Source of the DNA: Acidobacteriota bacterium
Lineage (GTDB): Bacteria > Acidobacteriota > Terriglobia > Bryobacterales > Bryobacteraceae
Assembly: GCA_026393985.1 (NCBI GenBank)
Contig: JAPKZB010000076.1
Span: 1 to 57,198, forward strand
Direction of reading: 5' to 3'
Length of the DNA stretch: 57,198 nucleotides
In this document: one piece after another, positions 10,638-36,585 of the stretch
Numbering within the stretch: position 1 is the stretch's first letter
Layout of the letters: each line of letters opens with the position of its first letter
Notes under the pieces: model-generated
What the model saw: the letters and a program-made list of their open reading frames with translations, nothing else
Databases searched by the model: none
Told to the model about the DNA's origin: nothing
Position numbers and translations under genes: made by a program

Positions 10638-10663
10638 GACAGAGCAGGCTCCAGAATAAGAAA

Positions 10664-10705
10664 CCCGCTCCCGCCTGCGGTTCGCAAACCACGGACGGGA
10701 GCGGG
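10664..10705 (-). terminator. Predicted intrinsic terminator of the formaldehyde dehydrogenase gene
   Basis: CCCGCTCCCG (10664-10673) and CGGGAGCGGG (10696-10705) form a perfect 10-bp GC-rich stem with a 22-nt loop. Read on the minus strand the stem is followed by TTTCTTATTCT, a U-rich tail. It lies 25 bp past the stop of the dehydrogenase gene. Confidence 0.6.
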
Positions 10706-10730
10706 CGGAAGCAACCAGACCGAGAGCGGC

Positions 10731-11933
10731 CTAGTGGACCATGTTGTGCGGGTCGATCACGAACTTCTTGGCCGCGCCCTTGTCGAAGTCGAGATAGCCC
10801 TGCGGAGACTGATCGAGGCCAATCATCGTGACGCCCACCGCCTTGGCCGGATGCACCTTGCCGTAGAGAATCGCGTTCATCAGGTTCCGGTGGTAGCGCA
10901 TCACCGGGCACTGTCCGGTGCAGAAGGTGTGGGACTTGGCCCAGCCGAGACCGATGCGGATGCCCAGCATGCCGATCTTGGCGTTGGCGTCCACGCCGCC
11001 CGGGTCGCCCGTAACGTACAGCCCGGGGATGCCGATGCCGCCGCCGGCCGCCGTAACCTCCATCAGCGAATTCAGCACCGTCGCCGGCCGCTCGACGCTC
11101 GATTCCGCCCCATGGCCGCGCGCTTCAAAGCCCACGCAGTCCACCGAACAATCCACTTCCGGCACGCCAACAATCTGCGCGATCTGTTCGGCGACGCTCG
11201 CGCTCTTCTTGAGGTCGATGACTTCGCAGCCGAAGCTCTTGGCCTGGGCCAGCCGCTCGTCGATCAGGTCGCCGACAATCACGCACGCCGCGCCCAACAG
11301 CTGGCAGCTGACCGCGCAAGCCAGACCCACCGGCCCGGCGCCGGCCACATAGACGATGCTGCCCGGGCCCACGCCCGCCGTGACGGCGCCGTGGAAGCCG
11401 GTCGGGAAGATATCGCTCAGCAGCGTCAGGTCGCCAATCTTGGCCAGCGCCTGGTCCCGGTCCGGGAACTTCAGGAGATTGAAGTCGGCGTAGGGCACCA
11501 TGACGTACTCGGCCTGTCCGCCGATCCAGCCACCCATATCGACGTAGCCGTAAGCGGCGCCGGGGCGGGCAGGGTTCACGTTCAGGCAGATGCCCGTTTT
11601 GCCGGACTTGCAGTTCTTGCAACGCCCACAGGCGATGTTGAACGGGACGCTCACAATATCGCCCTTCTGGAGGTACTCGACGTCACGGCCGCACTCGATC
11701 ACTTCACCGGTGATCTCGTGGCCCAGGACCAGACCGGTGGGCGCTGTCGTCCTTCCGCGCACCATGTGCTGGTCGCTGCCGCAGATATTCGTAGTCACGA
11801 TACGCAGGATGACCCCGTGCTGGCAGGGCCGGGGCAGGGCTCCCGGGATATCCAGCTCCAGCTTCGGGAAATCAATTGACTGGACCTCGACCTTGCCGGG
11901 TCCCATATAAACAACGCCACGATTAGTTGCCAT
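10731..11933 (-). CDS. fdhA: Glutathione-independent formaldehyde dehydrogenase, zinc-type
   Basis: A 400-residue zinc- and NAD-dependent medium-chain dehydrogenase that closely follows the Pseudomonas glutathione-independent formaldehyde dehydrogenase family (formaldehyde + NAD+ to formate). Visible features are the catalytic-zinc Cys in TNICGSDQHMVRGRT, GHEITGEVIECG with the zinc His/Glu, the four-Cys structural zinc lobe CGRCKNCKSGKTGIC (about 99-113), and the NAD motif GAGPVGLA (about 195). The long insert with NPARPGAAYGYVDMGGW is typical of this branch rather than of ordinary alcohol dehydrogenases. It stands alone, bounded downstream by a terminator, and probably serves detoxification or one-carbon oxidation. 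A related long-chain or dismutating alcohol dehydrogenase is the alternative. Confidence 0.87.
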   Translation of the reverse strand: MATNRGVVYMGPGKVEVQSIDFPKLELDIPGALPRPCQHGVILRIVTTNICGSDQHMVRGRTTAPTGLVLGHEITGEVIECGRDVEYLQKGDIVSVPFNIACGRCKNCKSGKTGICLNVNPARPGAAYGYVDMGGWIGGQAEYVMVPYADFNLLKFPDRDQALAKIGDLTLLSDIFPTGFHGAVTAGVGPGSIVYVAGAGPVGLACAVSCQLLGAACVIVGDLIDERLAQAKSFGCEVIDLKKSASVAEQIAQIVGVPEVDCSVDCVGFEARGHGAESSVERPATVLNSLMEVTAAGGGIGIPGLYVTGDPGGVDANAKIGMLGIRIGLGWAKSHTFCTGQCPVMRYHRNLMNAILYGKVHPAKAVGVTMIGLDQSPQGYLDFDKGAAKKFVIDPHNMVH

Positions 11934-15746: not shown

Positions 15747-15980
15747 AACCCCCCGGGCGCCCGAGCGGCGCAAGTTCGAGTTTCGGCACGCGCCAGAATC
15801 ACCCGAGCCGTAGCTAGGCATCAAAAAGTTGGGGGACGGCTTTTTGCGCCCCCAGATAGATACGGAATCTGGCAGAAGTTTTCTGAGTTCTGCACCGCGT
15901 CCTAACTTGAATTGCCGCCAAAGCCCGGTGGCCTTTTGACGTTGGGCCGGCTCTTGACCGTTGTCTTGACCTTGCTCCCT

Positions 15981-17294
15981 TCAGCCCGCGCGCTTCCGGC
16001 CCGGCAGATCCCAGAAAAGCCACAGCGCCACGGCCGACACGAGGATCGGAATCGGCCCGGCGAGGAACGCCAGATCGTACGACCCCGTACGGTCAATGTA
16101 CGCCCCCAGCGGCTTCTGCAGGCTCGAACCGCTGATCCAGGCAATAAAGCTCAACAATCCTGTAACCAGCCCGATGTGGCGTTGCGAAAGCTCCTGCGTA
16201 AAGGCGTAATAGCACGGGAACACCCCCAGGCTGCCCGCTGCCGTCATCATCAGTACGGTCAGCGCGGCCGCCACCGGGGGCACTCCCGGAATCGTCCACT
16301 CCCCCCGCGACAGCGCCGGCAACTGCGTCGCCGAAAGCACCAGTACCGCGCAAACCGAAAAAACCCACCGGCGGGAGTTCAGCACCGAAAAGCCCTTCCG
16401 ATGCAGCCATAGCGTGGCCGCCCCGGCGCCCAGGCAGCCAATGTCGGTCAGGATGTAATAGGCCGGTAGAATCTGCCCCAGCGTCTGCTGCTCCGTAAAC
16501 GCGAGACCGGCCTTGTCCTGCAGCGCCAGCGGCAGCCAGACCCGGTAGATCGACCACGTCGTGTTGATCGAGCAAACCACCACCACCAGGAGCCAGAAAC
16601 GGTGGTCGCCGACCAGCTGCTTCAAGCCGGCCAGCCAGTGGGGACGCTCCTGCTGCTGCTCGGCGGCAGGCAGTGCAAAGCTCGCGCCCCGCATCGTCCA
16701 CACCCACGCCGCCACCCAGAAGACGCCCATCGCGCCAATCGCGATGAAGGGCAGACGCCAGCTTCCCGGTGCCGGGGTGAGCATCGTGTTGATGATCAGC
16801 GGCGTCACAATCGCGCCAATCGAAACGCCCGACTGCAGGATCGAGTTCCCCAGCGCGCGCGCCTCGGGCGGCAACAGCCGCTGTGTCGTCTGCAGCGCGC
16901 AGGGCCAATGGCCAGACTCAAACAGCCCCAGCAGCGTCCGGCAGAGCAGCAGACTCGAAACCGTGTTCAGCCCCCCGAACTCGCCGGCGTATGCCGTCAG
17001 CACGCCCATCGCCGACCACAGCGTCAGCACGATCGGGTACACCCACCTCGGGCTGAACCGGTCCACCAGCGGGCCAAAAAACAGCGCGCCAAACGCAAAG
17101 GCGTAGCCAAAGAACTGCTCCACCATGCCGTAGTCGGCGTTGGTCAGCCGGAGCTCGTCAATCACCCGCCGCGAAACGCTCGCCAGCGTCATGCGGTCCA
17201 TGTAGTTGATCGTGCTCGCCAGCAGCAACAGGCCGCACACCCACCACTTCCAACTCTTCGCGCTCCGGTCTACAGCCAACTGTGGCCATCCCAA
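15981..17294 (-). CDS. MFS transporter, anion:cation symporter-like
   Basis: A 437-residue inner-membrane transporter of the major facilitator superfamily with about 12 hydrophobic segments. Segment 1 begins at WWVCGLLLLASTINYMDRMTLASVSRRVIDEL, the N-terminal signature of the anion:cation symporter (hexuronate/sialate/phthalate-type) branch. GPLVDRFSPRW is the loop 2-3 motif. The annotated start is TTG at 17294. A second in-frame TTG lies at 17279, and both overlap the creatininase stop (17270). It is the last gene of a minus-strand run beginning with the receptor at 26417, so it probably carries a hydrolysis product such as an organic acid. Confidence 0.85.
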   Translation of the reverse strand: MGWPQLAVDRSAKSWKWWVCGLLLLASTINYMDRMTLASVSRRVIDELRLTNADYGMVEQFFGYAFAFGALFFGPLVDRFSPRWVYPIVLTLWSAMGVLTAYAGEFGGLNTVSSLLLCRTLLGLFESGHWPCALQTTQRLLPPEARALGNSILQSGVSIGAIVTPLIINTMLTPAPGSWRLPFIAIGAMGVFWVAAWVWTMRGASFALPAAEQQQERPHWLAGLKQLVGDHRFWLLVVVVCSINTTWSIYRVWLPLALQDKAGLAFTEQQTLGQILPAYYILTDIGCLGAGAATLWLHRKGFSVLNSRRWVFSVCAVLVLSATQLPALSRGEWTIPGVPPVAAALTVLMMTAAGSLGVFPCYYAFTQELSQRHIGLVTGLLSFIAWISGSSLQKPLGAYIDRTGSYDLAFLAGPIPILVSAVALWLFWDLPGRKRAG

Positions 17295-18013
17295 GCCGCC
17301 ATGCGGCGCACGAAGTCAACCACTCCCTGCGAGAACTGGCCCAGCAGCGCTTCGCCCTTCTCCGGGCTCGCAAAGCGGGGGGAGCCGATGTGGCCGGTCG
17401 GCGTGCGCTCTTTGGTAATCCAGCCGCGGTAGGCCGGATCGAACGCGTAGCCGTTCGGGACGTCGGCCAGCTGCGTCACGTCGCCCTGCACGAGGCCAGG
17501 CGCAATCACCATCATCATCGACGTCTCCCATTCGCAGGCATGGCCCATGTAGTTCTGCTCGTAGCCGGCTGGCGCGGCCAGGTCCCAATACGAAGAGAAG
17601 AGCAGCAGCAGGTCCTGCCGCTGCCGGTACTGCTGGCGCAGTTCAAACACCACCTGCTTGGCCGGGACGATGTTGCCGCCGTGGCCGTTGAGGAAGTAAA
17701 TGCGCTGAAACCCATGCTGCAGGTAGTTTTCCGCCAGCGCCGCCAGCAAATCGAGATAGAGCCGCGGCGGCGCGGAGACCGTGCCGGGGTAGTCCGTATG
17801 GTGGTGCGAATTGCCGAGCCACTGTAGCGGCGCGAACAGGGCTTCCGCGCCCAGCACGCCCTCGGCGCGCCGGACCACTTCGCCCAGCAGGAAGCTGTCC
17901 GTGTAGACGGGCAGATGGTGCCCGTGTTGTTCCACGGCGGCGATCGGCAGGATGACGGGAGTCGACTTCGGGATAGCCTGCACCTGCTGCCAGGTCAGAT
18001 TCGCGGCGTACAT
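17270..18013 (-). CDS. Creatininase-family amidohydrolase
   Basis: A 247-residue protein of the creatininase family (PF02633), metal-dependent cyclic-amide or amide hydrolases. Signatures are the metal-binding segment PIAAVEQHGHHLPVYTD (about residues 26-42) and FLNGHGGNIVPAKQ (about 115-128). The ATG at 18013 opens the family-like sequence (MYAANLTWQQ) and lies 4 bp after the stop of the S15 hydrolase. The open frame continues further upstream but that part only mirrors the neighbouring gene. The family includes creatininase, formamide-releasing deformylases and the mycofactocin peptidase MftE, so the reaction is not fixed by homology. It overlaps the following MFS gene by 10-25 bp, and the whole run is likely one transcript. 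Confidence 0.85.
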   Translation of the reverse strand: MYAANLTWQQVQAIPKSTPVILPIAAVEQHGHHLPVYTDSFLLGEVVRRAEGVLGAEALFAPLQWLGNSHHHTDYPGTVSAPPRLYLDLLAALAENYLQHGFQRIYFLNGHGGNIVPAKQVVFELRQQYRQRQDLLLLFSSYWDLAAPAGYEQNYMGHACEWETSMMMVIAPGLVQGDVTQLADVPNGYAFDPAYRGWITKERTPTGHIGSPRFASPEKGEALLGQFSQGVVDFVRRMAAWDGHSWL

Positions 18014-18017
18014 AGGG

Positions 18018-19772
18018 TTATCGTTTCCTCGTGGGGATAACGGGCAGCACAACGTAGGATGGTGTTGCTTTGCTGTGCTGGATCGTCTGGGTGGCAATGC
18101 GGGTTTTCGTCGACGTGCCGAAGGCTTCGCCGGTGTTGGGGTTGCGGTCGAACTGCGGGAAGTGGGAGCTCGTGATGTCGATGCGAATCCGGTGGCCGGG
18201 CTGGAACTCGACGGCCGTTCCCACCAGGTCGATCGTGAACTCATACGTCTTGCCCGGCTGCAGCAGTTGCGGCTTGTCCGCCCCGGCGCGGTAGCGGGCG
18301 CGGATGATGCCTTCGGCCATGTTCAGCGCGCGGCCATCGGGATACACATCGATGAGCTTGGCGACGAAGTCGGTATCGGGCCCGTCCGAGGCGGCATGCA
18401 GCACCACCTTGACGGGCCCCGCGATCTCGACCGGTTCGCGGAGGTACTCCGAGGTGTAGCGCAGGATGTCGCCACGCGAGTCAAACGGGCGCTGATCCTT
18501 GGGCCCGGCGGGCGTCGGCGTGCCGCAGCAGTTGTTCCCGCCCAGCGAGGGCACCGGGTTCTGCGGGTCGTAACGATAGCTGGCCGCCGGCGCGGCGGCG
18601 GCCGGTTCGGCCCAGTCGAGTTTGCCGCCGGCGTGCAGATACATGTTCTTATACTGCGTGCGGGCAATGGGATATTCGTTCTCGCCGACCCACTCGTTGC
18701 GGCCCATCACGAACAGCTTCACGGGCGGCTCTTTATCGAGGCCATTGGCCAGGCCTTTGAGGTGATAGTCGAAGTACTGCAGCTCGAGCGAGTGCTGGTC
18801 GACGTGCGCGTGGGCGCCGAAGTCGAGGTCGCCAAATTTCTGCGACGAGCCGTGGCCCCAGGGGCCGATCACCAGCCGGGATTGCTTCCGGGCCTGTTCC
18901 GTCGCGCCCTTCTTCGACAGCAGCGCATAGCCGCGCAGCGTGCCCTGGCTGAAGATATCGAACCAGCCGCCAAACGTATGTGCCGGGGCCGTGATCTGGT
19001 CCATCACCTCTTCGGCGTTGAGCTTCTTCCAGTAGTCATCGTAGTCGGGATGCGCAATCCAGTCTTTGTAGAACTGCGCGTTACGGCCGGCCAGCTGCTG
19101 CATGGTGTTGAGCGGCAGGTGGCGCTGCATCTGATCAAAGTGGATCGCGTCGACGCCGCCAATCGTGTGGGGTCCCGTGTTCTGCATAATACGGGACTCC
19201 TGCCGCACCGGGCCCCAGCCGAAGTTGAAGCTCAGCCGCCAGCCGCCGTTCAGCGTAATCCAGTCGTGGTAGAGGCTCGTGGCGGCCACGGCCGGGAACA
19301 TGGCCACCAGATGCGGCGGCTTGGCCATCGCCGCGCGCCACTGTACGTGGCCGAGGTAGGAGCCGCCTTGCATGCCCACCTTGCCGTTGGACCAGGGCTG
19401 CGCCGCGGCCCATTCCACTGTGTCGTAGCCGTCGTTGATATCGTCGCGGAAGGGCTCCCAGCGGCCTTCGGATTCGTGGCGGCCGCGGACGTCCTGGAAG
19501 ACGAACACGTAGCCGCGCTGTGCAAAGAATACCGCGGCGTCGTAGGCCGCAGGCGCGCGCTCGGTGGAGTAGGGCGTCCGGCAGACGATCACCGGATACT
19601 TGCCCGGCTTCACCGGCCGGAACACATCGGCGTACAGCTTCACCCCGTCGCGCATCGGAATGCCGACGAGGTTGTCCATCACAATATCGTTGGTGGGCGC
19701 GTAAGCCTTCGGGAAGGTGGCCTGCGCCAGCAGGTGGAACGAAAGGGCGGCGAGCAGAAGTAAGAGGCGCAT
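18018..19772 (-). CDS. CocE/NonD-family (S15) hydrolase, exported
   Basis: A 584-residue alpha/beta hydrolase of the X-Pro dipeptidyl-peptidase/cocaine esterase family. The start at 19772 opens a clear signal peptide (MRLLLLLAALSFHLLAQ); an 11-codon upstream extension is possible but unneeded. The nucleophile Ser is in GGSYLGHVQW (about residue 148). The catalytic Asp is probably in FGGWFDIFSQG (about 275) and the His in GPWGHGSSQ (about 315). A C-terminal jelly-roll domain (about 390-580, ending in the FDRNPNTGE region) is typical. Such enzymes cleave esters or amides of acyl or prolyl groups. Export to the periplasm places it upstream of the cytoplasmic steps of the cluster. A 48-bp gap separates it from the preceding gene. 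Confidence 0.87.
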   Translation of the reverse strand: MRLLLLLAALSFHLLAQATFPKAYAPTNDIVMDNLVGIPMRDGVKLYADVFRPVKPGKYPVIVCRTPYSTERAPAAYDAAVFFAQRGYVFVFQDVRGRHESEGRWEPFRDDINDGYDTVEWAAAQPWSNGKVGMQGGSYLGHVQWRAAMAKPPHLVAMFPAVAATSLYHDWITLNGGWRLSFNFGWGPVRQESRIMQNTGPHTIGGVDAIHFDQMQRHLPLNTMQQLAGRNAQFYKDWIAHPDYDDYWKKLNAEEVMDQITAPAHTFGGWFDIFSQGTLRGYALLSKKGATEQARKQSRLVIGPWGHGSSQKFGDLDFGAHAHVDQHSLELQYFDYHLKGLANGLDKEPPVKLFVMGRNEWVGENEYPIARTQYKNMYLHAGGKLDWAEPAAAAPAASYRYDPQNPVPSLGGNNCCGTPTPAGPKDQRPFDSRGDILRYTSEYLREPVEIAGPVKVVLHAASDGPDTDFVAKLIDVYPDGRALNMAEGIIRARYRAGADKPQLLQPGKTYEFTIDLVGTAVEFQPGHRIRIDITSSHFPQFDRNPNTGEAFGTSTKTRIATQTIQHSKATPSYVVLPVIPTRKR

Positions 19773-19820
19773 GATCAAGGGAAAGTATATATCGCCCCGA
19801 ACCAACGCCCCAACCGAACG

Positions 19821-21440
19821 CTACTCTCCCAGATAGCGGCTCAATACATTGGCGGTGATCCGCGAAACCTGCGGGTCGACGAGCAGCGACGCGGGCCAGG
19901 TAATCGAGCTGGCCGCAAACACCGCACCGCCCGAAGGCGTCTCATAACACGCCATCTCCGCCCCTCCGTTCTCCGGGTTCAGCCCCTTGGCCAGCAGCTC
20001 CGTTCCCGGCGGGGCATAGCGGCTGATCCGGTCCATCTCGTGGCCGGAGGCGCCGCCCGGACAGCGCTCCTGCAAGCTCGCCGCACCGAACAGATCGCCC
20101 TCCCGCAGACCCGTTCCGGCGAAGACCCAGTGGTCCGGCTTCACCACCCGGTATGGTGCGCCGGTCATCAACCCCAATGCCGAACAGGTCACGCCCAGCA
20201 GCGAGCCATCCGGCTCGTGAACCATGTGCATGCGGCTTTCATAGCAGGCGGGGTCGGTCGGATCGACGAGATAGCCGGTTTCGTCCTCCTTCATCATCTG
20301 CGTCTTGCAGCGCATGGTGCCCTCGTCAAGAAACTCAACTTCGCACGAATAGCCGTTGGCCCCGAGGTACAGGAACCGCCCGCCCCGCTCATGCACCCAG
20401 GACTTGATCCGGTCAAACATCGGCACCGTGACGTACTCCGGATGCACGCTCGCAATCAGCACGCGGTAGCGGTCCAGATCAAGCTGGCCAAAGTGCAGGT
20501 GCGACTCGGCATAGAGGTCGTACTCGTAGCCCTCGCGTTCAAGCCAGCCCAGCGTGCGCCATTCAGCCGGCGCCAGATGGCTCGCCTGCCGGCCCGCGAT
20601 CGGATCCGTCACCTGCGTCTGTTCCGGTACGTGGCAGCCGATCTCCGGCCGCTCAAACGAGATCGGCGGATAGTGGTCGTTCGGGTAGCGGAAGCCCGAA
20701 AAGCCGGTTTTCTGGTAGCGTTCGAGATCGAGCCGCGCGTTCAGCGGAGGCGCCGCCGGCAGGCCTTCGGGATGGATGTAGTTGCTGCGTCCCCCGAAAT
20801 TGTTGTACGCGTTCCAGTTGATGTTCGAGCAGAGCACGGCGATCTTCGCTTTCGGCGCCGCCGGGGCGACAATCCACGGGAACGAGAAGAACGCCCCGGA
20901 CTCGCCCTTGGCGTGCAGATAGTACAAGCCGCTTCGCTCGGGGCCGGTGACAAACTGCGTATGGTGCGGATTGTCGTAGCCGCGTTTGTTCCATTCGACG
21001 CCGGTCTGCGCGTAGTCGCCGTCCGGCGTCACCTGCATCGTCGCCCGCGGACCGTGCTCATCAAACCAGCCGATATCGCGGATATGCTCCTTGCGATAGC
21101 CGTACCGCCAGACGCTCAAATGATACGGCTCCACCGCGTGCACCCGGAACTCGCTCCGCTCCCCGCTCCGTACCCACTTCGGCCACACATAGCCCAGCAG
21201 ACTGTCCGACAGCAGTCGGAACTGATATGGCCTCGCCGCATCGGCCACCATCTCCACGCTCTTTGCGCCATAGCCGCGGCAGCACAGCGACACGCGATAC
21301 GGCCCCGGTTCGAGGTCCGCATAGACCGCCCCTCGCGGCGTCGACCGTACCACCGCCACCGATTCGCCCTCCCGCTCGAACTCCACCAGCACCTCGCCGA
21401 TCGCAAGGTACCGCTCATCGCTCACGTAGCCAACCAGCAT
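19821..21440 (-). CDS. N,N-dimethylformamidase beta-subunit-like protein
   Basis: A 539-residue protein matching the large-subunit family of N,N-dimethylformamidase. Recognisable pieces are SGLYYLHAKGES (about 170-181), SNINWNAYNNFGGRSNY (about 203-219), and the glutamine-amidotransferase-like core segment LIASVHPEYVTVPMFDRIKSW followed by GGRFLYLGANGY (about 330-370). The true enzyme uses a mononuclear iron site to hydrolyse dimethylformamide to dimethylamine and formate, and needs a small subunit that is not seen here. The N-terminal 100 residues look like a beta-sandwich. No signal peptide. The start codon abuts the stop of the MFS gene (0 bp gap). The substrate is unknown, and the family is widespread in bacteria that do not use dimethylformamide. 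Confidence 0.78.
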   Translation of the reverse strand: MLVGYVSDERYLAIGEVLVEFEREGESVAVVRSTPRGAVYADLEPGPYRVSLCCRGYGAKSVEMVADAARPYQFRLLSDSLLGYVWPKWVRSGERSEFRVHAVEPYHLSVWRYGYRKEHIRDIGWFDEHGPRATMQVTPDGDYAQTGVEWNKRGYDNPHHTQFVTGPERSGLYYLHAKGESGAFFSFPWIVAPAAPKAKIAVLCSNINWNAYNNFGGRSNYIHPEGLPAAPPLNARLDLERYQKTGFSGFRYPNDHYPPISFERPEIGCHVPEQTQVTDPIAGRQASHLAPAEWRTLGWLEREGYEYDLYAESHLHFGQLDLDRYRVLIASVHPEYVTVPMFDRIKSWVHERGGRFLYLGANGYSCEVEFLDEGTMRCKTQMMKEDETGYLVDPTDPACYESRMHMVHEPDGSLLGVTCSALGLMTGAPYRVVKPDHWVFAGTGLREGDLFGAASLQERCPGGASGHEMDRISRYAPPGTELLAKGLNPENGGAEMACYETPSGGAVFAASSITWPASLLVDPQVSRITANVLSRYLGE

Positions 21441-22676
21441 CTACTCTCCTTTCCGCCCCGCCCGGCTGCCGGCCACACCCAGCGTCAGCGCGCAAAGCAT
21501 TCCGAACAGCGACAGGGCGCTGAAAACGAACAACGTACCATAGGCCGGCCGCAGCGCACCGACCAACAGCGGCGCCAGCGTCCCGCCCAGCGCCGAGATC
21601 ATGTTCACCGATCCCACGGCGAGTCCACGGCAATCCTCGGGCACCACCTCGAAGGCGAATGCAATGTAGTTGGCCGAGTAGAAGCCCTTGAAGATGGCGT
21701 AGAGCGCCGTGGCGGCCTGCACCTGCGCCAGGCTCTCCCCGGCGCCGATCCCGTAGAAACACCCGCACGCCAGCAGCAGCCCGCCCACCATCACCGCCAG
21801 CCGCCCTCGCCGGTACCGCATCGCCACCCAGTCGCCGAGACAGGCGCCCAGAAACATCCCCGTGATCATCGGCACCTCAATCGCCGTCGTCGCCGCCACG
21901 GCCGCCTGCGTCATCGGCAGTTGAAACCGCGCGTGCAGAATATCGGGCAGCCACGTGTAGAGCGTCCACACGTTCGACCCCACGGCCACCGCGCACAGGC
22001 AGATCAGCGCATAGGACGGAATCGCCAGCATGCGAAAAAAACCGGTGCGCGGCGCGGGTGGGCCGCTTGCTGCCGGGGCCGCTGCCGCCGGCCCCGCCTC
22101 GCGCAGCACCAGACGCAACACCAGCGCGTAGGCCGCCGTTACCCCGGCCAGCCCCCATAGCATCGCCCGCCACCCCAGGCTCTCCGCCCCCGCCGCGCCG
22201 TAGTATCCGCCCGCCATCACCCCCACGCTCTGCCCCGTCGAATGCAGCGCAATCGCCCGGGCCCGCGTCTCCGGTCCGTGCATCGTGCCAATCAACGCCA
22301 GCGCCGCCGGCACGTAGAACGACTGCGCCAGGCCCATCAGCGACCGCCCCGCCAGCAGCCACTCCGGCGTCGACGCCAACCCCGTCAGCGCCAGTGCCGC
22401 GCCGGAGCACAGCAGACTCGCGGCGATCAACCGCTGTTTCGACACGCGGTCCGCCACCCCGCCGCCGAATGCGTTCGCCACCCCGTAGACCCAGCCGAAA
22501 ACCGTCGTCGTCAGCGCTAGCTGCATCTCCGTGAATCCCAGCTCCGAACGCAACACCGGGAAGATGGAGTACAGCGACTGCCGGGCCATGTACGCCAAGG
22601 CAAAGGCCACCCACAGGAAGACGATCAGACCCCAGCGGCCGCCCCACCGCGCTACCTTGCTGCCGTCTTCACTCAT
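21441..22676 (-). CDS. MFS transporter
   Basis: A 411-residue major facilitator superfamily permease with about 12 membrane segments. The loop 2-3 signature appears as GGGVADRVSKQRL (about residues 72-84). A central cytoplasmic loop near 200-220 is Ala/Pro-rich. It differs clearly from the other MFS protein of this cluster, so the two probably move different compounds. The gene follows the receptor at 57 bp and precedes the dimethylformamidase-like gene with no gap. Its position right after the outer-membrane receptor suggests that it imports the substrate, or a periplasmic hydrolysis product, across the inner membrane. Confidence 0.85.
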   Translation of the reverse strand: MSEDGSKVARWGGRWGLIVFLWVAFALAYMARQSLYSIFPVLRSELGFTEMQLALTTTVFGWVYGVANAFGGGVADRVSKQRLIAASLLCSGAALALTGLASTPEWLLAGRSLMGLAQSFYVPAALALIGTMHGPETRARAIALHSTGQSVGVMAGGYYGAAGAESLGWRAMLWGLAGVTAAYALVLRLVLREAGPAAAAPAASGPPAPRTGFFRMLAIPSYALICLCAVAVGSNVWTLYTWLPDILHARFQLPMTQAAVAATTAIEVPMITGMFLGACLGDWVAMRYRRGRLAVMVGGLLLACGCFYGIGAGESLAQVQAATALYAIFKGFYSANYIAFAFEVVPEDCRGLAVGSVNMISALGGTLAPLLVGALRPAYGTLFVFSALSLFGMLCALTLGVAGSRAGRKGE

Positions 22677-22700
22677 GGAACCTGCCCATCATAACTCCAT

Positions 22701-22721
22701 CCCGGGCCTCCCCCACCCGGG
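22701..22721 (-). other. Small hairpin between receptor and MFS genes
   Basis: Two CCCGGG palindromes (22701-22706 and 22716-22721) can pair across a 9-nt loop in the 57-bp gap after the receptor. It could lower read-through into the downstream enzymes, a common way to make more receptor than enzyme. Weak evidence. Confidence 0.2.
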
Positions 22722-22733
22722 CGGGTTATTCCG

Positions 22734-25700
22734 CTACCACGTCAGCCGCAGCGTTAGCTGCAGATTGCGCGGCGTGTTGTTCGAAAAGCGGGTCAACAGA
22801 ATGCCGCTCGTGCTGTCGGGCAGCGGCAGTCCCGGATTGTTCAACACGCCGAAGAAGTCCACGTTCAGGCGGGCCACCAGGCTCTCGTTGATCCGTACCG
22901 ATTTAAATAGCGACGAGTTCAGCGCAAACACCCACGGCGCGGGCAGAAACTGGTTCCGCCACGGGTGCAGGTTCGTGTTCACCGAGGTCTGCTGCAGCGC
23001 GCCGTTGGCGAGCCGCACAAAAACAGTGTTCGTCTCGTAGAAGCGGGCGTTGGGGTCGTTCGGATTCGGCGTCGCCGGCGTCGGCCAGACCGGCTGGCTC
23101 GAAGGCTGGTAGCTCGAAGGAACGCCCATCACCCCGTTCGGCTGGCCGTTGGCCGCCGTCGAGTTGATCCGGTTGGCCGGAATGTAGCCGTTGTAGTAGA
23201 GCCAGCCGTCAAAGCACACGCCGCTGCGGCAGTCCTTCACCGGCACGTTCCGGTCGTTCAGCTGCACCGTGCCCAGGCTCCCCCAGTTGCCGGCGCCGAG
23301 TGTGAAGTACCGGCTGAACCACTCGCCGTTGCCGCCCACCTGCCAGCCGCCAATCAGGGCGTCCACGGCGCGATTGGCGTTCCGGCCCCAGTGCTTGCCT
23401 TTCCCGAAGGGCAGATCCGCCACCCAGTTCCAGTTCAGGCGGTGCTTCGGTATCGAAGGGTCGCGCCGGTAGTTCAGGAACCGGTTCAACTGGTTGTAAT
23501 CCTCGGGTACCGCGCCGCGCAGATAGAGATTCGGCGTCAGCATGTTGTCATCCCGCCAACCGTCGCCGGCCACCCGCATTGCATTCGAAAGCGTGTAGAA
23601 GAACTGGAAGCCCAGGCCTTGCGCATAGCGCCGCTGCACTTCGAGGGTGATGTTGTTGCTGTTCGACCAGCCCGTCTTCCGGTACTGCTGAATGGTGCCA
23701 AGCGTCTGCCGGTCATGGTTGCGGCGGATCACCCCGGCAAACTCGCCCGAAGGCAGCGGCTGCCCCGTATTGGAGAACCAGACGTAGTCGTTCGGGGCGT
23801 TGTTGTAGCTGTACCACTGGCTCAGTCGCATGCCGTGCGTGCCGACGTAGGCCACCCGCAGGCTCGTGTTCGCGAACAGCTCCCGCTCCACTGCCAGGTT
23901 CCACTCGTGGGCCCGCGCCGTCGGCTGGTTCGGGTCGAAGTGGTACATCACGCCCGCCCCGCGGGCAATCGTCAGCCGGCGATTGATGTCAATCACGTTC
24001 GCGCTGTTCTGCCCCGCCACCACCGTGGGAACCGAACGCAGCAGGAAATTAGGCAGGCCGTCCGGACTCGTCTGCGCGTTGGTCGGGTTGAATTCCAGCA
24101 CCGCCTGTCCCGGCGCATTCTGCGCCATCGTGGCGTTGTACAGCCGCAGCGACTCCGGAAAAGCAAACAGCGCGTAGCCGCCCCGGATCACCATCGGTCG
24201 GCTCCCATCCCGCAGCCGGTAGGCAAATCCGGCCCGGGGGCCGAAGTCCAACCGGTTCGGGTTGACAAACCGGGAAGGCAACCCGGACTGCTCCACCTGC
24301 TGGTAACGGATATTGATGGCATCGTAAGCCTGCACGATGGACGGCAGGGTCAGGCCCAACTGCGCCAGGTTTTCAAGCGGCCGCCCCAGCACCACCGTGC
24401 GGGCGTCCATGTTGTATCCGATCAGGCCGTTGTTGGCCTCCACCGGGGGCACGTTGTACTCATAGCGCAGACCCAGATTCAACGTCAGCCGCGGACGCAC
24501 CTTCCAGTTGTCTTGAAAATAGAGGGCCCGTTCGCCGGACCGCATCCGGAACCAGCCGCGGTTGAACCGCGCGTTGTAGTTGGCCAGCCCCATGTGGAAG
24601 TTGGCGCTGTTATGGCCGGTCAGCGGCAGCGAGCTAAACGCTGAACCCGTCGAAGGATCAAACAACCCGCTCGCATTGGTCGCAAAGTTGTGATTGCCAG
24701 CGGCCTCCGTCTGGTCCACCAGCGTATCGAGCCGCTCATAGCGGAACCGCCCGCCGAACTGAAATTCGTGCCGGCCGCTCACCTTCGTCAGGTTCTCGTC
24801 AATCATCACCACATTCGCGTAGTTCAGCGTGTAATTGATCCCCGTGTCCCAGTTCATGCGGAAACCGGCGTTCTGAATGCGCGGATGTCCGCCCCCGTTG
24901 AAGGGGTTCGGCAGCCCATACTCCCGGGCGATGTTCGACAGGCCTCCCAGCGGAATCTGCCCGCGATAATCCCGCGCCACGCTCACCACCGTCTCGCTGA
25001 AGAACGTCGGAGAGAAAGTGTGCGTCCACGAAGCTACCCCGTTGTCGTTCTGCCCTTCGTCAATCGCGCCATTGGCTCGGCCGTCGAGCGAGGTGGGTGT
25101 CCCCGCATCAATGCCGCTCGACGTACGCCACGCGTAGGAGCGGTTCGAGGAGTAACGGAAAAAAATCTGATCCTTGTCCGAAAGCCGGTGGTCGACGCGC
25201 GCCGTCACCGTCCAGTCGTTCCGGTTGCTGAAGCCGGTTCCGAACCAGTTATCGGTCACCAGCGGATTCACATCTGGCTGCGTGGGCAGCGGCGTGATGT
25301 TATAGAGCGCGGTGGCCAGCGGACTGCGCCGGTTGGCCGGAATCCGGTTACCCACAAACGGTACCCGGCTCCAGTTCTGCTCCCGGCCCGCCGTGCTCCA
25401 CGGGTCATACAGCGTAAACCGGCGCCCCGCGCCATCGATCAATCCGCTAAAGTCGCCCTCTCGCATCGCGGCCGTCGGCATCGTAATCGCCCGCGTCGCC
25501 GCCGAACGCAGCCGCAGCCCCTCGTAGGCTGCGAAGAAGAACGTCCGGTCCTTGCCCTTGTACAGCTTCGGCAGCGTGATCGGCCCTCCGGCCGAGGCCC
25601 CAAACTCGTTCCGAATCAGCTGCGGCGGCTTGGTGAAGAAATCCTGTCGCGCCCGCGCCACCCCCAGCCCACTGTTCCGGTGCGTTTCAAACAGCGCTCC

Positions 25701-26417
25701 GTGAAATTGATTCGTCCCCGCCTTCGTCGTGATCACAATCGAACCCGGCCGCGGCATCTTCGCCGACGAGTTACTCGTCTCCACCAAAAACTCGCCAACC
25801 GTATCAATCCCCGGAGGACGGTTCGGCAGCGACGCCCAGTCGCGGTTCGACAACAGCGCCCCGTCCTGCACATACTCCATGGCATAACGAAGGCCGAACA
25901 ACCGAGGCACCGATCCGGACTCCAGCCCCGGCGTCGTCATCAGCACCAGGTTCTGCAAAAAACGCCCGTTGATCGGCAGCTGCTCTATGCGCTCCCGCTC
26001 CAGCACATTCGACAGCGTCGGTCCCGTGGTTGTCACGAGCGGCGTCACATCGCCCGCTACCGTAATCGCCGTCCCCGTCTGCCCTACCTTCAGAGTCGCG
26101 TCAATCTGTGCCGCCTGCCCCACCACCAAGGTCAAACTCGCCTTCCACGTCTCCATGCCCGCCGATTCCACCGTAAGTTCGTACGGGCCCCGCTGCACGG
26201 CCGGAAACACATAGAAGCCGGCGCTGTTAGTCTGGCCGCTGAAAGTAACCGCGGTCTGGCTCTGGACGAGCACTACCTTGGCCCCGGGAATGACCGCTCC
26301 GGTCGTGTCCCTTACCGTTCCCTGAATACTGCCCGTACCGGTCTGCGCGCGCACTAAAACCGACGCCAGCACCCAACTGATCAAAGCACCGCGAGATACC
26401 CACTGAAACAAACCCAT
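22734..26417 (-). CDS. TonB-dependent receptor, Oar-like, first gene of the amide/ester cluster
   Basis: A 1227-residue outer-membrane receptor. I place the start at 26417 (MGLFQWVSRG) because a TATCCT box lies 7 nt upstream, and a longer frame back to 26447 would include that box. Signal peptide about 1-25 (ending VRAQ), carboxypeptidase-regulatory domain about 28-110 (GTVRDTTGAVIPGAKVVLV), plug about 120-235 (EQLPINGRFLQNLVLM), then a barrel ending LRLTW. The GKDRTFFFAAYEGLRLR segment near 270 is shared with the other receptors here. It is followed on the same strand by five genes with gaps of 57 bp or less, so it is probably the uptake component for the cluster's substrate. Confidence 0.9.
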   Translation of the reverse strand: MGLFQWVSRGALISWVLASVLVRAQTGTGSIQGTVRDTTGAVIPGAKVVLVQSQTAVTFSGQTNSAGFYVFPAVQRGPYELTVESAGMETWKASLTLVVGQAAQIDATLKVGQTGTAITVAGDVTPLVTTTGPTLSNVLERERIEQLPINGRFLQNLVLMTTPGLESGSVPRLFGLRYAMEYVQDGALLSNRDWASLPNRPPGIDTVGEFLVETSNSSAKMPRPGSIVITTKAGTNQFHGALFETHRNSGLGVARARQDFFTKPPQLIRNEFGASAGGPITLPKLYKGKDRTFFFAAYEGLRLRSAATRAITMPTAAMREGDFSGLIDGAGRRFTLYDPWSTAGREQNWSRVPFVGNRIPANRRSPLATALYNITPLPTQPDVNPLVTDNWFGTGFSNRNDWTVTARVDHRLSDKDQIFFRYSSNRSYAWRTSSGIDAGTPTSLDGRANGAIDEGQNDNGVASWTHTFSPTFFSETVVSVARDYRGQIPLGGLSNIAREYGLPNPFNGGGHPRIQNAGFRMNWDTGINYTLNYANVVMIDENLTKVSGRHEFQFGGRFRYERLDTLVDQTEAAGNHNFATNASGLFDPSTGSAFSSLPLTGHNSANFHMGLANYNARFNRGWFRMRSGERALYFQDNWKVRPRLTLNLGLRYEYNVPPVEANNGLIGYNMDARTVVLGRPLENLAQLGLTLPSIVQAYDAINIRYQQVEQSGLPSRFVNPNRLDFGPRAGFAYRLRDGSRPMVIRGGYALFAFPESLRLYNATMAQNAPGQAVLEFNPTNAQTSPDGLPNFLLRSVPTVVAGQNSANVIDINRRLTIARGAGVMYHFDPNQPTARAHEWNLAVERELFANTSLRVAYVGTHGMRLSQWYSYNNAPNDYVWFSNTGQPLPSGEFAGVIRRNHDRQTLGTIQQYRKTGWSNSNNITLEVQRRYAQGLGFQFFYTLSNAMRVAGDGWRDDNMLTPNLYLRGAVPEDYNQLNRFLNYRRDPSIPKHRLNWNWVADLPFGKGKHWGRNANRAVDALIGGWQVGGNGEWFSRYFTLGAGNWGSLGTVQLNDRNVPVKDCRSGVCFDGWLYYNGYIPANRINSTAANGQPNGVMGVPSSYQPSSQPVWPTPATPNPNDPNARFYETNTVFVRLANGALQQTSVNTNLHPWRNQFLPAPWVFALNSSLFKSVRINESLVARLNVDFFGVLNNPGLPLPDSTSGILLTRFSNNTPRNLQLTLRLTW

Positions 26418-26424
26418 GGCCGTT

Positions 26425-26430
26425 AGGATA
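26425..26430 (-). promoter_or_regulatory. -10 box for a leaderless start (minus strand receptor)
   Basis: TATCCT on the minus strand ends 7 nt before the ATG at 26417. No Shine-Dalgarno lies between, so transcription would begin at or next to the start codon. No convincing -35 hexamer is seen. Confidence 0.45.
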
Positions 26431-26487
26431 GCGCGTCCGCCCATCATCTCGAAGACACTCCTCCCCGTCTTTCGTGCCCGAAGCGAT

Positions 26488-26493
26488 TAAACT
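26488..26493 (+). promoter_or_regulatory. -10 box for a leaderless start (plus strand receptor)
   Basis: TAAACT ends 6 nt before the ATG at 26500 with no Shine-Dalgarno between. With the box at 26425-26430 it makes an 82-bp divergent promoter region for two receptors. Confidence 0.45.
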
Positions 26494-26499
26494 TACAGG

Positions 26500-29400
26500 A
26501 TGCGTCCCCTCCTCGTCGCGCTCGCCCTTGCCCTTCCCGCCCTCCCCCAAACCTTCACTTCCCGCCTCACCGGCACCGTCACCGACCCCTCCAACGCCCT
26601 CGTCGCCCGCGCCACCATCACCGCCACCAATACCGGCACCGGCGTCAAAAAAACCGCCGTCACCGATGCCTCCGGCGTCTACAGCATCCCCCTCCTCCTG
26701 CCCGGTGTCTACGATGTCCGCATCGAAGCCGCTGGCCTCCAATCCCAGCTCCGCGCCGCCGTCACCCTCGAAACCAATCAGACCGCCACCCTCAACTTCG
26801 CCCTCGCCCTCGCCACCACCACCGCCGAAGTCACCATCACCGCCGACGCCCCCCTCCTCCAGTCGGAAACCTCCGGCGTCGGCGCCACCCTTGAAACCAA
26901 ACTCATCGAACGCTTCCCCCTCCCCCAGCGCGACGTCATGGGCCTCGTCCGCTCCCTGCCCGGCATCATCGCCGGTTCCCAGGTCGGCGACGCCCGCGGC
27001 GGCCGCAACGTCTTCAACTCCAACTTCTCCGTCGGCGGCGGCCGCACCTCCACCAACGAAGTCCTCCTCGACGGCGCCCCCAACACCGTCGGCGACTTCA
27101 ACGGCGTCGCCATCGTCCCCCCGCAGGACTCTGTTCAGGAGCTGCGCATCGAAACCTCTTCCTATTCCGCCGAGTTCGGCCGCACCGGCGGCGGCACCGT
27201 CAACATGGTCACCAAAGCCGGCACCAACCAGTTCCGCGGCAACGCCTTCTACTACGTCCAGAACGACGCCTTCAACGCCAACAGCTTCGTCAACAACCGC
27301 AACTCCGTCTTCACCGTCGATGGCCGCGCCGTCGCCAAGCCCGTCGTCCGCCGCCACCAGTACGGCTACACCTTCGGCGGCCCCGTCCTCATCCCCCGCC
27401 TCTACAACGGCCGCAACAAAACCTTCTTCTTCACCGCCTACGAAGGCCGCCGCGACACCGACCCCACCCAGGGCTTCAACTCCATCCCCACCGCCCGCGA
27501 ACGCTCCGGCGACTTCTCCCAAACCGTCTTCGTCCGCCCCGGTGCCGCCACCGGCGACCTCATCCGCCTCTTCGACCCCCTCACCAGCCGCACCGTCAAC
27601 GGCGCACGCACCCGCGAAGCCTTCCCCGGCAATCTCATCCCCGCCAGCCGCATCAACCCCATCGCCCGCAACGTCCTCGCCCTCCTCCCCGCGCCCAACC
27701 AGCCGGGCGACCCCATCACCCAGCGCCGCAACTTCTTCTTCAACGGCAAAAACTCCTACACCCGCGACGTCTTCTCCGCCCGCGTCGACCAGTTCTTCAA
27801 CGAAAAACACCGCCTCTTCGTCCGCGTCAACTGGCAGGAAAACCTCTCGGAAGTCCCCAACTCCGCCATCCGCCTCCCCGACTCCGGCACCGTCTACGAC
27901 GCCTTCCGCAACGTCGGTCTCGACGACACCTGGCAGCTCTCCCCCCGCTGGACCAACGTCTTCCGCGCCAGCTTCGCCCGCTTCCTCGCCAACCAGCTCC
28001 CCCGCGGCCCCTTCCCCTTCGACCCCACCTCGCTCGGCCTGCCCACCTACTACCGCGACAACGCCAATATCCCCATCCTCCCCAACTTCTCCTTCGGCTT
28101 CGTCGACGTCGGCGGCCGCGCCTACAACTACCAGCCCCGCGACACCCCCTCGTTCCAGAACCAGCTCGTCCGCAGCTCCGGCAAGCACAACACCCGCCTC
28201 GGCTTCGAACACCGCATCTACAAGTTCTACCCCTTCCAGGTCTTCAACCCCACCGGCTCCTTCTCCTTCGGCTCCAACTTCACCCAGCAGGACCACCTCG
28301 CCGCCGCCCAGCCCGGCCAGGGCCTCGGCCTCGCCTCCATGATGCTCGGAGCCGGCTCGTTCGGCTTTGAAAAGGTCGAACCCCTCACCGCCCTCAACAA
28401 ATACTGGGGCGGCTACCTCCAGGACGACTACCGCCTCTCCTCCCGCCTCACCCTCAATCTCGGCCTCCGCTGGGACACCGAAAGCGGCGCCATGGAATCC
28501 CACAACCGCCTCAGCTACTTCGATCCCACCGCCAGCCTCAACCTCCCGGGCGGCTACAAAGGCGCCATGTACTTCACCGGCAACGGCCGCCCCCGCTCCA
28601 TCCGCCAAGCCAACTACGGCAACTTCCAGCCCCGCATCGGCTTTGCCCTCCGGCTGACCAACAAAATCGTCACCCGCGCCGGCTACGGCATCTTCTTCCT
28701 CCCCGTCGCCACCGAAACCGGCATCGTCACCACCCCCTTCAACTACTCCCTCGCCGCCGACGTCCTCAACCCCGACTACACCCCCCGCAACACCCTTTCG
28801 AATCCCTTCCCCGCCGGCCTCCGCCCGCCGGAATCCGCCAACCGCATCGAAGACGGCACGTACCTGCTCGGCAGCTTCCCCGGCGCCGGCACCGTCCTCC
28901 GCGATCAGAAGCCCGGCTACATCCAGCAGTGGAACTACGCCCTCTCCCGCCAGGTCGGCCGCTCCAGCGTCATCGACGTCACCTACTTCGGCTCCCGCGG
29001 CGTCCACCTTCCCATTCCCTCCATGCAGCTGAACCAGATCGACTCCCGCTATCTCGCCCAGGGCAAGGCGTGGCTCGAAACCCCGGTCGATAACCCCTTC
29101 TTCGGCCGCTTCAGCTCCGGCATGCTCTCCACGCGCCAGGTCCCCCGCCTCCATCTGTTGAAGCCCTTCCCGCAGTACGGCGCTGCCGGCACCGGCCTCG
29201 CCGCCGCCTTCGCCGGCGCCCTGCTCTACAACCGTCCGCCCGTCGGCGACTCCATCTATCACGCCGTCACCGTCAAGTTCGAACGCCGCTTCGCCGCCGG
29301 CCTCTCCGTCAACGCCCACTACACCTTTTCAAAGCTCATCGATATCGGCGGCGTCGGCAACGGCAACGCCTTCAACGATCCGTCCGCTCTGCGCGATATC

Positions 29401-30006
29401 TACAACATCCGCCTCGAACGCGCCGTCTCCACCTGGGACGTCCCCCAGCGCTTGATTCTCACTTACAGCTACGCCCTCCCCTTCGCCAAGGGCAATCGCT
29501 TCCTCGGCGGCTGGGAGCTTTTCGGCTTCCATACTTATGAATCCGGCCGCCCCGTCGTCGTCGGCGGCCCGGACCTGTCCCGCCTCGCCGGCGCCGGGCC
29601 CTCCCGCGCCTTCCTGACCGGCGCCGAACCCCGCCTCGCCTACCAGACCGCCATGGCCAACGCCCGCGACTTCGACCCCCGCTGCGCCTGCTCCAAGCCC
29701 TGGTTCAACACCGCGGCCTTCGTCACCAACGCCGCCCAGATTCCCGAATACGTTATCCCCAACGGTCCCCGCACCATGCCCAACCTCCGTCAGGATTGGA
29801 CCCGCAACGTCGACGCCGTCCTCACCAAACGCTTCCGCGTCACCGAAACCATCAACGCCCTGCTTGATATCCGCGCCTTCAACCTCTTCAATGCGGTCTG
29901 GTTCGCCGGCCCCAACGCCACCGTCACGTCCAACACCTTCGGCTCCGTCACCGCGGTCAACTCCGCCCCGCGCCGCCTCGAAATGGGCCTGAAGCTGAAC
30001 TTCTAG
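26500..30006 (+). CDS. TonB-dependent receptor, Oar-like
   Basis: A 1168-residue outer-membrane receptor with signal peptide (about 1-17), carboxypeptidase-regulatory domain (about 20-105, GTVTDPSNALVARATI), plug (about 115-225, ERFPLPQRDVMGLVRSLPG) and barrel ending MGLKLNF. The coding strand is extreme in C at the third position. It is divergent from the receptor at 26417, and the two barrels differ, so this is not a recent duplication. The sulfite dehydrogenase pair begins 44 bp downstream on the same strand with only a weak promoter-like box between, so part of their expression may be shared. The ligand is unknown. Confidence 0.9.
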   Translation: MRPLLVALALALPALPQTFTSRLTGTVTDPSNALVARATITATNTGTGVKKTAVTDASGVYSIPLLLPGVYDVRIEAAGLQSQLRAAVTLETNQTATLNFALALATTTAEVTITADAPLLQSETSGVGATLETKLIERFPLPQRDVMGLVRSLPGIIAGSQVGDARGGRNVFNSNFSVGGGRTSTNEVLLDGAPNTVGDFNGVAIVPPQDSVQELRIETSSYSAEFGRTGGGTVNMVTKAGTNQFRGNAFYYVQNDAFNANSFVNNRNSVFTVDGRAVAKPVVRRHQYGYTFGGPVLIPRLYNGRNKTFFFTAYEGRRDTDPTQGFNSIPTARERSGDFSQTVFVRPGAATGDLIRLFDPLTSRTVNGARTREAFPGNLIPASRINPIARNVLALLPAPNQPGDPITQRRNFFFNGKNSYTRDVFSARVDQFFNEKHRLFVRVNWQENLSEVPNSAIRLPDSGTVYDAFRNVGLDDTWQLSPRWTNVFRASFARFLANQLPRGPFPFDPTSLGLPTYYRDNANIPILPNFSFGFVDVGGRAYNYQPRDTPSFQNQLVRSSGKHNTRLGFEHRIYKFYPFQVFNPTGSFSFGSNFTQQDHLAAAQPGQGLGLASMMLGAGSFGFEKVEPLTALNKYWGGYLQDDYRLSSRLTLNLGLRWDTESGAMESHNRLSYFDPTASLNLPGGYKGAMYFTGNGRPRSIRQANYGNFQPRIGFALRLTNKIVTRAGYGIFFLPVATETGIVTTPFNYSLAADVLNPDYTPRNTLSNPFPAGLRPPESANRIEDGTYLLGSFPGAGTVLRDQKPGYIQQWNYALSRQVGRSSVIDVTYFGSRGVHLPIPSMQLNQIDSRYLAQGKAWLETPVDNPFFGRFSSGMLSTRQVPRLHLLKPFPQYGAAGTGLAAAFAGALLYNRPPVGDSIYHAVTVKFERRFAAGLSVNAHYTFSKLIDIGGVGNGNAFNDPSALRDIYNIRLERAVSTWDVPQRLILTYSYALPFAKGNRFLGGWELFGFHTYESGRPVVVGGPDLSRLAGAGPSRAFLTGAEPRLAYQTAMANARDFDPRCACSKPWFNTAAFVTNAAQIPEYVIPNGPRTMPNLRQDWTRNVDAVLTKRFRVTETINALLDIRAFNLFNAVWFAGPNATVTSNTFGSVTAVNSAPRRLEMGLKLNF

Positions 30007-32569: not shown

Positions 32570-32623
32570 CGCCTGCTCTCTCCTTCCGCTGCCGGGCCTC
32601 GCCCCTGCGTCAACTGCGCCAGC

Positions 32624-32649
32624 GTATCAGAATCGAGTATCAGAACCGA
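32624..32649. repeat. Tandem 13-bp direct repeat at a promoter
   Basis: GTATCAGAATCGA (32624-32636) is followed at once by GTATCAGAACCGA (32637-32649), one mismatch. The pair abuts the -35 box at 32650. Head-to-tail sites next to a -35 box are typical of activator binding; this is inference. Confidence 0.4.
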
Positions 32650-32678
32650 TTGTCGCTGCCCGGCAATTCCGATAAGCT
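32650..32678 (+). promoter_or_regulatory. Predicted promoter of the DUF1552 operon
   Basis: TTGTCG (32650-32655) and TAAGCT (32673-32678) are 17 nt apart. The ATG is at 32692, leaving a leader of only about 7 nt and no Shine-Dalgarno. Confidence 0.45.
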
Positions 32679-32691
32679 TGACTCATTCCGT

Positions 32692-33939: not shown

Positions 33940-33945
33940 CCGGTC

Positions 33946-36546: not shown

Positions 36547-36585
36547 CCCCCTCCCCTCCACCCGCGTTATCGTGTTACTGCACCC

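Follow-up and report, generated by a model that had tools for sequence, protein, structure and literature searches.

One of the closest known relatives of the enzyme considered here is the dimethylformamidase (DMFase) of Paracoccus (6lvb, 6lvd, and 6lve), which uses a 2-Tyr-1-Glu iron site to destroy N,N-dimethylformamide (DMF), a solvent introduced in 1893; what is said of it here comes from parts of a single description (PMC7686228). Those parts place the pentraxin-like domain II at residues 74 to 337, describe the catalytic domain III as ThuA/glutamine-amidotransferase-like, name Y399, Y440, and E521 as the Fe(III) ligands, H519 as essential, and N547 as one of the active-site residues, and report that the large subunit alone is inactive (PMC7686228). 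The PDB names of the N-acetyl-(R)-beta-phenylalanine acylase entries (8huy, 8i59, and 8i5a) suggest that the DMFase fold also serves N-acetyl amino acids, and our literature search found no publication on this acylase. Here we describe a DMFase-like gene that lies within a run of six same-strand genes in a 57,198-nucleotide stretch of DNA (the window; positions 1 to 57,198 of contig JAPKZB010000076.1, assembly GCA_026393985.1) from an Acidobacteriota bacterium of the Bryobacteraceae. The six-gene set is probably a recently assembled operon, and judging from its sequence we give an even chance to its being a lineage-specific catabolic operon that would import and degrade an amide-bearing organic acid.

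The six-gene run and its DMFase-like enzyme

The run and the site that follows it comprise the following features:

22734..26447, minus strand, receptor-like outer-membrane protein (CarboxypepD_reg and OMP_b-brl_4; alternative start at 26417), which opens the six-gene run
21441..22676, minus strand, MFS1 permease (Pfam MFS_1; top NCBIfam match TIGR00893, 85 bits)
19821..21440, minus strand, DMFase-like putative Fe(III) amidohydrolase, 539 aa (PF20254, active-site alignment, structural model, and Foldseek)
18018..19772, minus strand, CocE/NonD S15 alpha/beta-hydrolase (TIGR00976; likely signal peptide, judged by eye)
17270..18013, minus strand, creatininase-family hydrolase (PF02633; outside the main clade of creatininases linked to DMFase-like genes)
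15981..17294, minus strand, MFS2 permease (Pfam MFS_1; top NCBIfam match TIGR00893, 135 bits)
15832..15853, minus strand, terminator-like stem-loop with a T-run, 3' of MFS2, a possible transcript end (consensus scan)

From the receptor gene to MFS2, the genes were separated by gaps of 57, 0, 48, and 4 bp, followed by a 25-bp overlap between the creatininase-family gene and MFS2. An earlier note on this DNA had listed six minus-strand genes with these gaps and one overlap and had named their families, among them three different hydrolase families; the open reading frames (ORFs) and spacing were found as claimed, the note having used the later start, 26417, for the receptor gene, and Pfam and NCBIfam profiles agreed with the naming of all six genes and with the three hydrolase families. 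The ratio of nonsynonymous to synonymous substitution rates (dN/dS) was 0 to 0.15 in all 11 scored gene comparisons of the window with two related genomes, G010 and G016; the unscored twelfth comparison was that of the DMFase-like gene with its copy at locus L032 (alignment gaps). Because dN/dS was low in 11/11 scored comparisons, we regard the six ORFs as selected genes and not shadow ORFs. The junctions between the six genes were preserved in three genomes at dS values of about 0.03 to 0.23. The tight same-strand spacing, shared by loci L031 and L032 of the two relatives, together with purifying selection thus supports a catabolic operon. The consensus scan listed no terminator-like site in the intergenic gaps of the run; it yielded 11 such sites, versus 7.9 ± 2.9 in shuffled sequences, and this excess is not strong.

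The DMFase-like protein matched PF20254 (DMFA2_C) above the gathering threshold (187 bits; cut-off, 27). When its profile was searched against solved proteins, 8huy was the best match (3e-26), with DMFase 6lvd/6lvb at 4e-23 to 5e-23, and the part of DMFase that it matched started at residue 355, beyond domain II. We aligned 50 of the 99 full-length subfamily rows with 22 distant relatives and with fragments of 6lvd and 8huy, and this placed the predicted iron ligands at Y212, Y242, and E335 and the catalytic residues at H333 and N362. For the Y440 position, a pairwise HMMER alignment pointed to a nonconserved residue, and the alignment of the family with bridging sequences gave Y242. The equivalents of Y399, E521, H519, and N547 were kept in 50/50 subfamily rows, and that of Y440 was Y in 49 and F in 1; the 22 distant relatives kept all five residues, save the N547 equivalent (21/22, with D in one). 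The AlphaFold2 model computed from 59 rows had a mean predicted local distance difference test score of 91.5 (70.9 for a 22-row model). Its nine best PDB matches in Foldseek were all chains of DMFase or of the acylase, with template modeling scores of 0.51 to 0.59 by query length and 16 to 20% identity. We conclude that the DMFase-like active site is intact, and we predict iron binding and amidase activity for it.

The protein thus resembles DMFase in its catalytic domain III, in its 2-Tyr-1-Glu ligands with His and Asn, and in the ranking of structural matches. Unlike DMFase, it has 539 instead of about 760 aa, and its short N-terminal beta region cannot fit both domain I and domain II, so that the three-domain architecture of the ~760-aa DMFase large subunit was not found. 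Its gene also differs in lacking a small-subunit gene between its neighbors and in sitting among S15, creatininase-family, and MFS genes; the gaps between the six genes are too short for one, and no search for it was made in the remainder of the genome. The acylase, which gave the best profile match and has the same active-site residues, is likewise longer (about 770 aa) and differs in being only 16 to 20% identical to the window protein in the structural alignment.

The S15 protein scored 485 bits against TIGR00976 (CocE/NonD), above the cut-off of 66.3, and aligned with cocaine esterase, a CocE/NonD enzyme, over nearly its whole length, including the catalytic GGSYLG, GWFD, and GPWGH motifs of the Ser/Asp/His triad. 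In contrast to cocaine esterase, it has an apparent signal peptide (by eye). The scores of MFS2 (135 bits) and MFS1 (85 bits) against TIGR00893, the D-galactonate transporter subfamily, were far below the cut-off of 395 and denote resemblance only. The receptor was compared with the plug domain and barrel expected of a TonB-dependent transporter; it matched the OMP_b-brl_4 and CarboxypepD_reg models only, and no plug model did so at an E value of 0.001. A second receptor-like gene (26500-30006, plus strand) stands back to back with that of the run, with the two start codons 52 bp apart (26447-26500). Further window genes (5877-7142, 9318-11933, 32530-37881, and 42701-45643 among their coordinates) are of the DUF1501, sulfatase, zinc alcohol dehydrogenase, DUF1552/DUF1588, and acetyl-xylan-esterase-like types or encode another receptor-like protein.

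Gene order in relatives and the mosaic make-up of the run

Conservation of the gene order was assessed by searching for the DMFase-like protein in 151 genomes, i.e., the window genome (G000) and 150 relatives. Matches were present in 57/151 genomes, and 36 loci reached at least 51% identity; of these, we read the window locus and 32 more and left out G010:C193, G013:C618, and G089:C185. In addition, one genome per species for 84,980 species was scanned with two peptide patterns, which gave 492 confirmed relatives, of which the best 80 were taken; these lean towards the window's branch. The 32 loci of relatives, 71 named records (80 minus 9 duplicate contigs), and the window made up 104 loci in total, some of them interrupted by contig ends. 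Record titles among the best 80 of 492 named Acidobacteria, Chloroflexi, Planctomycetes, Poribacteria, Latescibacterota, Gemmatimonadota, and a few others, and 78/80 were marked as metagenome-assembled genomes (MAGs).

Among the 104 loci, the exact six-gene order was found only in the window, L031 (G010), and L032 (G016). The latter two belong to the same genus as the window, encode proteins 97 to 100% identical to those of the window, and have the same tight same-strand spacing. The earlier note had proposed a complete route and had suggested looking for its gene order in other Bryobacterales; beyond these two genomes of the same genus, only partial units were kept, and conservation of the six-gene cluster across the order was rejected. 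A conserved complete six-gene route is therefore unsupported, because the full order is limited to three genomes and its units are found apart elsewhere.

Of these units, the MFS-DMFase-like pair alone was retained in L033 (G006), L034 (G017), and L048 (G001), where the DMFase-like protein was 80 to 84% identical and the adjoining MFS1 homologue 59 to 61% identical to that of the window. The pair was also kept in the named record L065 (DMFase-like protein, 86%), followed there by an FmdA-type gene (70 bits in NCBIfam; cut-off, 500) and a receptor gene. A close homologue of MFS2 (E value of 1e-90 or less) was present in 7/61 genomes, and a creatininase homologue was adjacent in 7/7; for the creatininase-MFS2 pairs of G015, G026, and G098, a profile search found no DMFase-like gene within the surrounding 20 kb. 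The six-gene run is thus a mosaic of [MFS1-DMFase-like], [CocE/S15], and [creatininase-MFS2], each of which is found apart elsewhere; the direction, i.e., that separate pieces were joined into an operon, is the way in which we would read it. Two further loci bear on these units. At L048 (9713-11003; G001:C182), the DMFase-like gene appears split between two reading frames and extends to the end of the contig. At L208 (G014:C245:1-10600), the genome that carries a creatininase-MFS2 pair 98 to 99% identical to that of the window gave no close DMFase-like match; its creatininase gene is cut by the start of the contig, so that a gap or a contig from contamination may be the explanation.

Creatininase-type and other partners of DMFase-like genes

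The neighbors of DMFase-like genes were counted with profiles over the 5-kb flanks of the 104 loci (841 kb in total) and compared with a 400-kb control. This control consisted of 20 regions, their positions regularly spaced or arbitrary, taken from four genomes of the family to which the window belongs, and is unmatched for other phyla. Since the loci are not independent, counts of clusters at 80% identity (49 clusters) are given beside those of loci; neighbors were named by running Pfam on one or two representatives of each cluster, and the remaining members were assigned by clustering. Creatininase-family genes were found at 30/104 loci (16/49 clusters; control, 0), enolase-superfamily MR_MLE genes at 32/104 (19/49; one control hit), MFS genes at 24/104 (11/49; control, 2), Amidohydro_2 genes at 18/104 (10/49; control, 0), and DapA-family genes at 16/104 (9/49; control, 2). 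FmdA and aspartoacylase-like genes were each found at 10/104 loci (5/49 clusters; control, 0), and S15 genes at 7/104 (5/49; control, 0), including L075, L084, L106, and L136. DMFase-like, creatininase, and MR_MLE genes stood together within 5 kb at 14/104 loci. In the loci of relatives, a creatininase gene lay within 5 kb in 19/33, versus 0.18 expected from genome-wide counts (17 genomes, not independent). The adjacency of DMFase-like and creatininase genes exceeds chance.

Receptor genes were found within 5 kb of the DMFase-like gene at 11 of all 104 loci (6 clusters), versus 10.5 expected (5 control hits), and at 11 of the 37 acidobacterial loci, the control's own group, versus 4.0 expected, with 8/11 on the same strand. 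Receptors of this kind are generic and abundant, with a modest enrichment near DMFase-like genes in Acidobacteriota, and the receptor is the weakest member of the proposed operon.

The earlier note had proposed an amide, ester, or cyclic imide as the theme of the cluster, and the amide and cyclic-amide part of it held: the DMFase-like active site is intact, and creatininase-, FmdA-, Amidohydro_2-, aspartoacylase-, and, at two loci, hydantoinase-type genes lie near relatives. Of the hydantoinase-type genes, which lie near DMFase-like and S15 genes, L106:3842-5962 encodes a hydantoinase A with caprolactamase alpha as its nearest profile (611 bits; cut-off, 1000), L136:14898-16616 encodes a hydantoinase B (Pfam) whose nearest profile, a caprolactamase subunit, scored below its cut-off, and L136:11738-13822 was assigned to hydantoinase A by clustering.

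Two other neighborhoods were seen. A queC-type gene lies directly beside the DMFase-like gene in L103, L105, L109, L111, L122, L134, and L138, and a queF-type gene in L107, L111, L122, L134, and L138; this branch has Latescibacterota and Gemmatimonadota titles, Pfam was run on the L134 copies and the others were assigned by clustering, and the QueC profile, found at 8/104 loci, represents 2 clusters only. In the Planctomycete-titled L096, L101, L115, and L121 (and in part L126 and L108), FmdA, MFS, Amidohydro_2, Kelch/NanM-like, DapA-family, and DMFase-like genes follow a common order, which in L096 and L101 continues into creatininase and MR_MLE genes. Perhaps these Planctomycete-titled clusters encode a longer related pathway.

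The creatininase homologue of the window carries PF02633 (205.4 bits, above the gathering threshold of 31.3), as do the described members of the family (creatininase, MftE, IolN, and ArfB). It differs from them in scoring below the NCBIfam cut-offs for MftE (TIGR03964, its best NCBIfam match, 101.9 bits; cut-off, 172), creatininase (equivalog TIGR04448, 85.3 bits; cut-off, 235), and IolN (61 bits; cut-off, 245), in giving no match to the ArfB profile at an E value of 0.001, and in standing outside the main clade of creatininases linked to DMFase-like genes. The creatininase, MftE, and IolN identities were rejected on these scores. The NGHYEN of creatininase is NGHGGN in the window homologue.

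Two kinds of CREATININASE partner of DMFase-like genes were distinguished in a tree that comprised 29 of the 30 linked creatininases (L077 was missing, presumably because of a 150-residue filter) and 20 unlinked ones. One branch (support, 100/99) held 24/29 linked creatininases, from Acidobacteria, Planctomycetes, Chloroflexi, and a Rhizobium-titled MAG, and the window creatininase and its two copies stood outside this clade, beside unlinked ones of the same genus and family. The tree was midpoint rooted, and the program issued a long-branch warning. The unlinked rows were hand-picked from the matches listed, two of them for a nearby S15 match, and all came from the window's class, with many linked rows coming from other phyla; the clean split of linked from unlinked creatininases may partly reflect this sampling. 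The second DMFase-like gene of the window genome (L049; G000:C54:180000-199999), 56% identical to that of the run, adjoins a main-clade creatininase gene on the opposite strand. In a DMFase-like tree made by a quick method, the window group stood weakly next to an acidobacterial creatininase-linked group (Shimodaira-Hasegawa-like approximate likelihood ratio, 87; open fork). Since the window creatininase lies outside the usual clade, a creatininase-type partner appears to have joined the DMFase-like enzyme at least twice. On a simple reading, the usual partner would have been lost from, or never present in, the window's branch, which would later have acquired another creatininase together with its permease. 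An association of the two families that arose twice would suggest that their reactions belong together.

Competing explanations and a proposed route

A mosaic need not serve one pathway, and DMFase-like/MFS, S15, and creatininase/MFS units might stand side by side and act on different substrates, as their occurrence apart elsewhere and the restriction of the full order to G000, G010, and G016 would allow. We consider this doubtful, since very tight junctions (gaps of 0 and 4 bp and the 25-bp overlap) were kept in the three genomes at dS values of about 0.03 to 0.23, and since creatininase genes are linked to DMFase-like genes far above chance in other lineages, through a different clade. Catabolism of peptides or cyclic dipeptides, with an S15 enzyme of peptidase type, a creatininase homologue acting as an MftE-like peptidase, and a DMFase-like N-acyl-amino-acid deacylase, seems unlikely. 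The top NCBIfam match of the creatininase homologue (MftE, 102 bits), the best profile PDB match of the DMFase-like family (an N-acetyl-beta-amino-acid acylase), and dipeptide-type ABC permease-like genes near 4/104 loci (read from the sequence by eye) fit such a role; however, the MftE score is below its cut-off (172), the S15 protein is of CocE/NonD type and far under the X-Pro dipeptidyl-peptidase cut-offs, and the MFS proteins resemble organic-anion transporters.

The presence of a creatininase family member, and of hydantoinase-type neighbors of DMFase-like genes, namely A in L106 and both A (by clustering) and B (by Pfam) in L136, would be expected of an operon for creatinine or hydantoin degradation, which is nevertheless very improbable, given the low creatininase equivalog score (85 versus 235), NGHGGN in place of NGHYEN, HyuA profile matches at 2/104 loci, and no creatinase, deaminase, or hydantoinase among the six genes. 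Creatinine as the substrate is disfavored by the subfamily cut-offs (TIGR04448). Use of DMF or formamide as in Paracoccus, to which the conserved DMFase active-site residues and the FmdA-type gene (70 bits; cut-off, 500) after the DMFase-like gene of the close relative L065 might point, is the least probable of these explanations and was rejected on architecture and gene context. The protein is much shorter than the DMFase large subunit and shares 17% identity with 6lvb in the structural alignment, a small-subunit gene is missing from the run, a small solvent would have little need of a receptor, an S15 enzyme, and permeases, and DMF was introduced in 1893 (PMC7686228).

Several observations weigh against a dedicated amide-catabolic operon. 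The full order comes from three close genomes only and hence may be a recent chance assembly, and S15 homologues (65 to 81% identity) were separate from the other genes in six contexts, three of them contigs of less than 6 kb. S15-type genes are common, and the 14 PF02129 matches in the window genome predict about 2 loci, versus 7 found; the receptor type is abundant as well. At least 14 changes of the creatininase-linked state are needed on the DMFase-like tree (25 in shuffles), so that the linkage was often gained or lost, and the varied partner set of the relatives (enolase-superfamily, DapA, QueC, and others) means that the DMFase-like family may act on several substrates. Finally, the DMFase large subunit alone is inactive (PMC7686228, in the parts drawn on here), and the gaps of the run hold no gene for a small subunit.

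In the catabolic operon that we favor, built from [MFS1-DMFase-like], [S15], and [creatininase-MFS2] pieces if the direction of assembly is as proposed, the receptor-like protein might carry the compound across the outer membrane, the weakest of the assignments. The CocE/S15 hydrolase, probably exported in view of its family and apparent signal peptide, would remove an ester or acyl group outside the cytoplasm, and the two MFS permeases, whose top subthreshold match is a sugar-acid transporter subfamily, would move the product inwards. The DMFase-like enzyme would hydrolyze an N-acyl or N-formyl amide via a predicted 2-Tyr-1-Glu Fe(III) site, the residues of which are conserved, and the creatininase-family hydrolase may open a second, perhaps cyclic, amide. 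On a wider scale, we would put it at evens that the DMFase-like protein belongs to a group of short Fe(III) amidohydrolases, possibly made of a single subunit, which extends across phyla and serves natural amide catabolism together with a dedicated creatininase-family partner and often an enolase-superfamily enzyme, and that in the window's lineage this partner was replaced by a creatininase of another subfamily with its own permease.

The enzyme families are known; descriptions of the short DMFase-like form, its partnership with creatininase, or the mosaic operon were not found in our literature search. That search found no publication with both "dimethylformamidase" and "creatininase," in keeping with the earlier note's remark that no described pathway has this set, and none with both "dimethylformamidase" and "Planctomycet," most subscription papers being outside its reach. 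Among the matches listed for creatininase-family gene clusters, judged by title and the start of the abstract, nothing dealt with this system. Because the short form clusters with creatininase-type, enolase-type, and other hydrolase genes in many mostly uncultured bacteria, natural amide substrates are indicated, and the locus offers a short, testable list of genes: one putative iron amidase, one creatininase homologue, and one transporter.

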